A DNA stretch of 64,000 nucleotides from Desulfobacterales bacterium (lineage in GTDB: Bacteria; Desulfobacterota; Desulfobacteria; Desulfobacterales; UBA11574): positions 1 to 64,000 of the forward strand of contig JAQYVT010000007.1 of assembly GCA_030145345.1 (NCBI GenBank). Reading direction: 5' to 3'. The notes below the pieces were generated by a model. It had not been told where the DNA came from and did not search any database. It worked only from the letters and a program-made list of their open reading frames with translations. The translations under genes and the position numbers were made by a program. Below are positions 378-2,236 of this stretch, piece by piece (within the stretch, counting starts at the first letter, position 1; every line of letters starts with the position of its first letter).

Positions 378-890
378 ATGTATAACGAAGTTGTAATGGA
401 CCATTTCAGGAATCCTCGAAATGTAGGGGTTATCGAAAATGCCGACGGGGTTGGTGAGGTTGGGAATCCGTTGTGCGGGGATATTATGACCATCTATTTG
501 AAAGTAAACGATGACCAGATAGAGGATATCAAATTTCAAACCTTTGGATGTGGATCGGCGATTGCGGTTTCCAGTATGCTAACGGAAATCGCCATGGGAA
601 AACCCATTGACGCGGCCAAAAAGATAACCAACAAAGATGTCGCCAATGCCTTAGAGGGCTTGCCAAAAAATAAGCTGCACTGTTCCAATCTAGGCGCTGA
701 TGCACTGCAATTGGCCATTAAAGATTATGAAAATCGAAAAGCAGGAAAACCCCGGGTAGAACTCAAACGCAAAGAGGAACATGAACATGCCCATAAAGAC
801 CAGTGTTACTGCCCTTACTGCGATGTGGAACTCGATAAAGGAACTGAATTCTGTGAAGCGTGCCAACACAGTCTCACCGAAGAACACTAG
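378..890 (+). CDS. NifU/IscU-like iron-sulfur cluster scaffold with C-terminal zinc-ribbon-like extension
   Basis: HFRNPRNVG, GNPLCGD, FGCGSAIAVSS and LHCSNL motifs (three conserved Cys); C-terminal CYCPYC...CEAC. Confidence 0.93.
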   Translation: MYNEVVMDHFRNPRNVGVIENADGVGEVGNPLCGDIMTIYLKVNDDQIEDIKFQTFGCGSAIAVSSMLTEIAMGKPIDAAKKITNKDVANALEGLPKNKLHCSNLGADALQLAIKDYENRKAGKPRVELKRKEEHEHAHKDQCYCPYCDVELDKGTEFCEACQHSLTEEH

Positions 891-1032
891 AACCTATCTC
901 AAAATAAAGATTTTGGTTCAAGATCAAGGCGGGGCCGAGTTTTAACCCGCAGGCATACTCAAGTATGTCGAGGACTTAAAACGAGGGCCAAACGCCGAGA
1001 TTGGGCCAAAAGATTATTTTGAGATAGGTTCT
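889..1032. repeat. 144-bp imperfect palindromic intergenic element (element A)
   Basis: Perfect 19-bp terminal inverted repeat AGAACCTATCTCAAAATAA / TTATTTTGAGATAGGTTCT; inner core AAGGC...GGCATACTCAAGTATG...AACGCCGAGATTGGGCC. Confidence 0.85.
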
Positions 1033-1060
1033 AATTCATATCTGAGAAAGGATCCTGACC

Positions 1061-2236
1061 ATGCACATCATCAATTTGGATCACATATCTTCCAATCCGC
1101 TTCTTCCAGAAGTAAAAGAAACAATGATCGCGGCCATTCAGGAGGATTACCATAATCCTTCGAGTCAGCACAAGCGGGGTGAAGCGGCCGCTGAAGTGTT
1201 GGAAAGGGCGCGTAAAACCGTTGCCGCCCTCATCAACGCATCAAATCCCAAAGAAGTGGTGTTTACCTCGAGCGGAACGGAATCCGTCAATCATGCCATC
1301 AAAGGGGTTGCCCTGGCCAACGCCAAAAAAGGTAAGCATATCGTCACTTCAAATGTCGAGCACAACGCCGTAATCCGCAGCATCCGACGATTGAAAGGGC
1401 TTGGATATTCCGTCACATCAATTGATGTGGACAAATACGGGCGTGTAAATCCGGCGGATGTGGCCGAGGCCATCACCGATGAGACCATACTGGTCACCAT
1501 CATGCACAGCAACAACGAAACCGGAACGATTCAACCTATTGAAGAAATAGCTAAAATTACTCGACAGAGAAAGGTCATCTTTCATACCGACGCCGTCGAT
1601 TCCGTAGGCATCGTCCCCATTGATGTCCAGAAAATGGGGGTCGATCTTTTGAGTTTTGCGTCAAACACCTTTTATGGCCCCACCGGTATCGGTGGACTTT
1701 ATGTTCGTCGGGGCATCATGGTTTGGCCGTTGCTCGACGGCGGTGTTCAGGAAAATAACAAGCGCGCCGGAACTGAGAATCTCATCGGCATCATCGGGAT
1801 GGCAAAGGCTGCTGAAATTGCCAAACGGGGGCTTCCTGAAAGGACGGCACATTTGGAAATGCTAAAATCCAAGCTGATCAGCGAGTTGCCCAAGCATATC
1901 GATGAGTACATCATCAATACTCCGCCTGAAAACAGCTTGCCGAACTTGTTGTCCGTATCCATTAAATATATCGAAGGCGAAAGCGTGATGCTGATGCTCG
2001 ACGATGATGACATCGCAGTATCGACACGCTCAGCTTGTGCTACCGGCTCCCTTAGAGCATCTCATGTCCTGATTTCCATCGGGCTTTCACATGCGGACGC
2101 CCAGGGAACGCTGATAATTACACTGGGCCTGGACAACACTCAAGACCATATCGATCGTTTTTTGAAATCGCTCCGAAATGTAGTGAAGACCTTACGCGAC
2201 ATATCGCCGTTATACCGAAAAATCTCACAAAGCTGA
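1061..2236 (+). CDS. NifS/IscS-like (class V aminotransferase fold) protein lacking the canonical PLP lysine
   Basis: TSSGTESVNHAI, VEHNAV, HSNNETGTIQPI, HTDAVDSVG, active-Cys loop STRSACATGSLRASHVL; PLP-Lys position reads SFASNTFYGPTGIGGLYVR. Confidence 0.9.
   Translation: MHIINLDHISSNPLLPEVKETMIAAIQEDYHNPSSQHKRGEAAAEVLERARKTVAALINASNPKEVVFTSSGTESVNHAIKGVALANAKKGKHIVTSNVEHNAVIRSIRRLKGLGYSVTSIDVDKYGRVNPADVAEAITDETILVTIMHSNNETGTIQPIEEIAKITRQRKVIFHTDAVDSVGIVPIDVQKMGVDLLSFASNTFYGPTGIGGLYVRRGIMVWPLLDGGVQENNKRAGTENLIGIIGMAKAAEIAKRGLPERTAHLEMLKSKLISELPKHIDEYIINTPPENSLPNLLSVSIKYIEGESVMLMLDDDDIAVSTRSACATGSLRASHVLISIGLSHADAQGTLIITLGLDNTQDHIDRFLKSLRNVVKTLRDISPLYRKISQS

Follow-up and report, generated by a model that had tools for sequence, protein, structure and literature searches.

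The sulfur of the ISC, NIF, SUF and MIS machineries is assumed to be supplied by cysteine desulfurases. The closest known system to the one described here is the IscS2-IscU pair of Archaeoglobus fulgidus (PDB 4eb5, 4eb7 and 4hvk; D199K mutant, 4r5f). A. fulgidus IscS (AfIscS) has no desulfurase activity, and its loop cysteine ligates the [2Fe-2S] cluster that IscU carries (PMC7585200). IscS1 of M. acetivorans is also without the lysine (PMC7585200), and this protein, which has no known activity, forms inclusion bodies. In Escherichia coli without iscS, H2S restores Fe-S biogenesis, and IscU is required (PMC13015791). Two other small systems have been described. The minimal ISC system (MIS; PMC12192291) is a two-gene unit of a desulfurase-fold protein and a scaffold, known as MisS/MisU in Helicobacter pylori (PMC10653786). 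The SMS system (SufBC/SmsCB) of Methanocaldococcus jannaschii is proposed to assemble Fe-S clusters from sulfide with no desulfurase (PMC12192291). Here, we analyzed a nifU-nifS pair in a window of 64,000 nucleotides from a Desulfobacterales bacterium (contig JAQYVT010000007.1). A literature search, which did not reach Garcia et al. 2022 (MIS/SMS), found no paper on lysine-less bacterial members.

The nifU-nifS pair of the window

An earlier note on this DNA had described a NifS/IscS-like protein that lost its PLP-binding lysine and kept its catalytic cysteine loop in an intact 391-amino-acid frame, next to a NifU/IscU scaffold. As shown in Table 1, the frame is intact, and nifU lies directly upstream. 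The protein has a class-V aminotransferase fold (TM 0.91 to 0.95 against IscS/Nfs1 structures), and its score for the NifS equivalog TIGR03402 is below the cut-off of 530.75. Residue equivalents were taken from an alignment of the protein with IscS of E. coli (L121) and IscS2 of A. fulgidus (4eb5). Residues 199 to 209 read FASNTFYGPTG, against FSGHKIYGPKG in E. coli IscS. Schiff-base K206 is T203, H205 is N202, S203 is A200, G204 is S201, and K211 is T208. The alignment bears out the noted replacement of the lysine by Thr and of the His by Asn, and the DAVD motif places an Asp at the Gln183 site. Among the active-site changes, those listed in the note stood. It had missed the loss of Arg354, the R323 in front of the loop cysteine and the change of H350 to Gln. 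We take Arg354 of IscS to be the equivalent of SufS R379, which holds the cysteine carboxylate. Kept in the window protein are T73, E74, E100, H101, N152, D177, R235 and the loop cysteine C326.

Table 1. Features of the nifU-nifS locus (positions in the window; residues of the window protein, with E. coli IscS equivalents)
Feature	Position	Strand	Evidence
NifU/IscU-type scaffold, 170 aa	378..890	+	TIGR03419, 195 bits, over cut-off; best PDB match AfIscU 4eb5_C
C-terminal zinc-ribbon-like CxCPYC...CxxC extension of NifU, residues 143-162	804..863	+	
140-bp imperfect palindrome, dispersed repeat between nifU and nifS	896..1035	.	nine other copies, 93-96%
Lysine-less NifS-like protein, 391 aa	1061..2236	+	PF00266, 243 bits; TIGR03402, 434.6 bits; AlphaFold2 model
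D180 for Gln183 (PLP O3' contact)	1598..1600	+	Q in 52/52 canonical, 0/123 lysine-less
A200-S201-N202-T203 for S203-G204-H205-K206, Schiff-base lysine lost	1658..1669	+	alignment
R323 before loop Ser-Ala-Cys (E. coli Gly325)	2027..2029	+	R/K in 63/63 of window clade; G in 31/31 canonical
C326, loop cysteine (E. coli C328), kept	2036..2038	+	175/175 sequences
I352 for Arg354 (presumed cysteine-carboxylate anchor)	2114..2116	+	R in 52/52 canonical; V/L/I/T/M in 123/123 lysine-less

Structure modelling, which the note had proposed, gave an IscS-like AlphaFold2 model (pLDDT 91.5, pTM 0.89), with the Cys loop (residues 325 to 331) as its low-confidence part. The best fold matches were human Nfs1, E. 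coli IscS and A. fulgidus IscS, and among these A. fulgidus IscS2 had the highest identity, 42 to 44%. The model and its fold matches support the position of T203 at the lysine site, which was assigned by alignment. The note had allowed for another lysine at the Schiff-base position, and none was found conserved around the pocket. K81 was set aside as a replacement, since it is conserved yet common in canonical proteins too. A sequencing error at the motif, also considered in the note, and a pseudogene are both excluded: three other assemblies at 94 to 97% identity (L040, L041 and L042) carry the identical motif, the close relatives lack the lysine as well (63/63), and dN/dS is 0.11 to 0.15 for nifS (0.08 to 0.10 for nifU). 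The lysine-less genes are under purifying selection. Canonical NifS proteins (TIGR03402), such as L001 of the same genome, have the fold, the structural residues and the loop cysteine in common with the lysine-less NifS, whereas the PLP and substrate residues are absent from the latter, which scores below the family cut-off. Judged by the defining residues that we tested, the window protein is not a cysteine desulfurase, and the routine label "cysteine desulfurase NifS" is probably wrong for the lysine-less genes.

The NifU of the window keeps three cluster-ligand Cys motifs (GNPLCGD, FGCG and HCSN) and has LPKNKLHCSNLGADAL in place of LPPVKIHCSxLAEEA. LPPVK is the IscU motif recognized by HscA. 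Across the family, the partner NifUs have HCSNLG where canonical ones have HCS(V/I/L)LAEE, and LPPVK is never present. The three scaffold motifs are kept in 133 to 134 of the 134 HCSNLG-type NifUs. The zinc-ribbon-like tail, which the note had overlooked while identifying the pair correctly, occurs in 118 of these 134; canonical NifU/IscU proteins are without it, save two rows adjoining lysine-less genes. nifU stands immediately upstream of the lysine-less nifS in 57 of 60 loci, and a search of the 60 loci for further conserved neighbors found none besides nifU. In the Endomicrobia locus L110 (171-5536), a Rrf2-type regulator, a permease and a quinolinate synthase-like gene are followed by a lysine-less nifS, a zinc-ribbon nifU and a canonical nifS, with one NifU common to both kinds of NifS. 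The 140-bp repeat between the two genes of the window is not part of the nifU-nifS system: its other copies in the host genome lie on contigs C29, C39, C50, C67, C17, C161, C71, C104 and C96, and L040 has no repeat at this spot, with a gap of only about 30 bp.

Residue signature, distribution and origin of the family

The note's finding of lysine loss held, and its scale is larger than the note had supposed: the window protein does not stand alone but belongs to a large conserved family. In one alignment of 175 NifS/IscS sequences, some of them near identical, Q183, H205, K206 and R354 (E. coli numbering, as throughout this paragraph) are all lost in 123 and all kept in 52. No intermediate with only some of the four was found among the 175. 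No other columns of the protein tell the two groups apart as well as these four, and every sequence has the loop cysteine C328. The lysine position holds Q, T, P, S, A, D or I in the lysine-less proteins, mostly Q/T/P/S/A in bacteria, a variety that an unconstrained site would be expected to show. Other PLP-pocket residues are largely kept: D180 and H104 in 123/123, T76 in 111/123 and N155 in 106/123. It is possible that a retained but inert cofactor accounts for them; crystals of A. fulgidus IscS are reported to contain PMP. L285 and L286 (TGHSLLGPQG) seem to have lost the lysine as well, but they belong to another desulfurase-like family in which the loss is probably an artifact of the alignment, and they were set aside.

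A scan of the genome contigs and the phylum returned 63 close relatives of the window protein, all 63 lysine-less. In an evenly drawn sample of the phylum, the lysine-less motif was read in at least 50 of 198 genomes, a lower bound since only the stronger matches were fetched. Related lysine-less groups also occur in Saccharicenans (L099, L100 and L108) and Endomicrobia (L110). A second lysine-less subgroup (L024, L025, L030, L031, L033 and L279, the last in genome G017) has the motifs SG[AVI]SLGAPKG and NTGSACASK and a NifU with HCSNLGA that is without a zinc ribbon; several of its members are in the window's own family.

To trace the origin of the lysine-less state, we removed the trait columns and built trees. 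The free quick tree needed two changes of the lysine state and did not resolve a single origin; AfIscS2, L110 and E. coli sit on long branches. When all lysine-less NifS proteins, AfIscS2 included, were held in one clade, the log likelihood rose by 10 (p-AU 0.72). Because the held-together tree has the higher likelihood, one ancient origin is favored by the sequences, though the long branches keep this short of proof. The NifU tree unites the partners of all lysine-less groups with AfIscU and another solved IscU, 7c8m (SH-aLRT 93); most inner branches are weak.

AfIscS2 has the same losses (K206D, H205N, Q183A and R354L) and keeps the loop cysteine. It is also paired with an IscU, with the motif LPKQKMHCSNL, and the NifU of the window family is likewise of the HCSNL type. 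Unlike AfIscS2, with Asp at the lysine site, the window family is bacterial, has mostly Q/T/P/S/A there and carries Arg or Lys before the loop SAC. Its NifU also differs from AfIscU in having a zinc ribbon. Cluster ligation has been shown for the A. fulgidus pair, whereas for the window family it is a prediction. The note had proposed a bacterial equivalent of A. fulgidus IscS, and the best PDB match of NifU, the identity to AfIscS2, the common losses and the single clade that the tree did not reject all agree with that proposal. The two pairs probably share ancestry. On our best reading, the window pair would work like the A. fulgidus pair, and the arrangement would be a widespread one among bacteria.

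Other systems resemble the pair in part. M. acetivorans IscS1 is, according to the published report (PMC7585200), a lysine-less IscS beside an IscU, as here. MIS is likewise a two-gene unit of desulfurase fold and scaffold with no carriers or chaperones alongside, just as only nifU is conserved beside the lysine-less nifS in the 60 loci. MIS is, however, described with a cysteine desulfurase, and the lysine-less NifS is without the residues for desulfurase work. SMS resembles the pair in its proposed cluster assembly from sulfide with no desulfurase. Its scaffold is unrelated, and the SufB/D core is absent from the host and from G251, a genome described below.

Sulfide-producing hosts and genomes with the lysine-less protein alone

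The host carries dsrA (617 bits), in line with the sulfide-rich, probably sulfate-reducing host that the note had supposed. dsrA was found in 51 of 60 relatives. We rejected it as a discriminating correlate, as it does not separate carriers of the lysine-less gene from non-carriers; its frequency supports a sulfide-rich host all the same. The note had also suggested searching for a second, canonical desulfurase. One was found, the NifS L001 (TIGR03402, 636.5 bits), which has its own long NifU and 42% identity to the lysine-less protein. The lysine-less pair is therefore an additional, second system in this host. A normal desulfurase accompanies the lysine-less protein in most carriers. The SufB/D core (PF01458) gave no match in the host (G000), G251, G065 or G030. 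The host also has three divergent NifU-like genes (L265, L266 and L267; G000:C37:36797-44181; 38 to 89 bits to PF01592), which are not associated with the nifUS pair, and similar weak NifU-like genes occur in G251 and G065.

The note had not recognized that some genomes carry no other desulfurase. The lysine-less protein stands alone in six draft genomes, which can miss genes, from at least five families (G251, G287, G264, G065, G030 and G017). In G251 (99% complete, 50 contigs), which has dsrA, it is the only NifS/IscS/SufS-type protein, and the single true NifU is its partner; the other full-length class-V match resembles the host's SerC in score and span. At E 1e-15, no further desulfurase-type match was found in G287 (99% complete, 6% contamination) or in its congener G264 (97% complete), whose gene is truncated by a contig end. 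In G017 (96% complete) the gene is truncated too, and the one protein of this type there is lysine-less and belongs to another subgroup. G065 (85%) and G030 (79%) appear to be lysine-less-only too. In the same order, G257, G313, G338 and G364 (96 to 99% complete) and G029 (94%) gave zero NifS/IscS/SufS-type matches; G029 has the SufB/D core. These five genomes are possibly further sulfide-fed lineages.

Candidate roles of the lysine-less NifS

We consider it fairly probable that the lysine-less protein, derived from NifS, is no desulfurase but a partner of NifU in assembling or holding Fe-S clusters, with sulfide as the source. According to this model, the NifU-NifS pair would be a minimal Fe-S assembly unit whose NifS subunit has given up cysteine as a sulfur donor. 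The subunit would dock on NifU with its IscS fold and mobile loop cysteine kept, so that Cys326 would ligate or cap the cluster on NifU. Ferrous iron and free sulfide, the latter made by the host's sulfate reduction, would supply the clusters that are built or held. The computation shows the joint loss of the residues, the invariant loop cysteine, the co-varying NifU, the purifying selection, the dsrA-bearing hosts and the genomes in which no other desulfurase was found; from these we infer that the protein would lack desulfurase activity, ligate a cluster through Cys326 and use sulfide. The published cluster ligation by AfIscS and the H2S rescue through IscU make a sulfide route with capping by C326 plausible. 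Since the residues are lost and the lysine-less gene is the sole desulfurase-type gene in a few near-complete genomes, cluster building from free sulfide may occur there. Counting against this reading are the kept D180, H104, N155 and T76 (E. coli numbering), for which a pure scaffold partner has no evident use, the canonical desulfurase of most carriers and the low confidence of the Cys loop in the model.

The main rival is a persulfide relay, in which the canonical NifS, a rhodanese or a Dsr-type carrier would load C326 with sulfane sulfur for transfer to NifU, making the protein a sulfurtransferase on a desulfurase fold. Such a relay is possible because most carriers, including the host, hold a canonical desulfurase, and the invariant loop cysteine and the single run of genes in L110 speak for it. 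It fits most genomes but not the six lysine-less-only ones, in which no NifS/IscS/SufS-type donor was found, and linkage of the two kinds of nifS was seen only in L110. We regard it as unlikely. The kept pyridine-ring Asp180, His104 and Asn155 (E. coli numbering) and most phosphate contacts, like the PMP reported in A. fulgidus IscS crystals, would suit an enzyme that still binds PLP or PMP non-covalently, with slow or different chemistry on another substrate. The Schiff-base lysine, Gln183, His205 and the carboxylate Arg are, however, gone in all members, and the lysine position drifts freely with no replacement lysine, and we hold this option very improbable. We hold it very improbable that the protein is a pseudo-enzyme subunit that heterodimerizes with, or regulates, canonical NifS: the two co-occur in most genomes and have the same fold, but the lysine-less protein comes with a separate NifU in a separate operon and stands alone in the six genomes named above. 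Decay or sequencing error, with the odd motif and nothing further in its favor, has a negligible chance given intact frames, the low dN/dS and 123 sequences from independent assemblies in the same state.

A broader proposal can be made, which we advance tentatively and with clearly less confidence than the reading of a sulfide-fed partner. Some sulfate reducers would make all of their Fe-S clusters by NifU and its lysine-less NifS partner, with neither SUF nor a desulfurase, from sulfide directly, and the arrangement would have a single ancient origin common to archaea and several bacterial phyla. The K206/H205/Q183/R354 signature sorted all 175 sequences and is easy to apply. With a large bacterial family that has kept its partner and lost its cysteine-handling residues, and with some near-complete genomes in which no other desulfurase was found, the old question of sulfide-fed Fe-S biogenesis becomes directly testable in bacteria.
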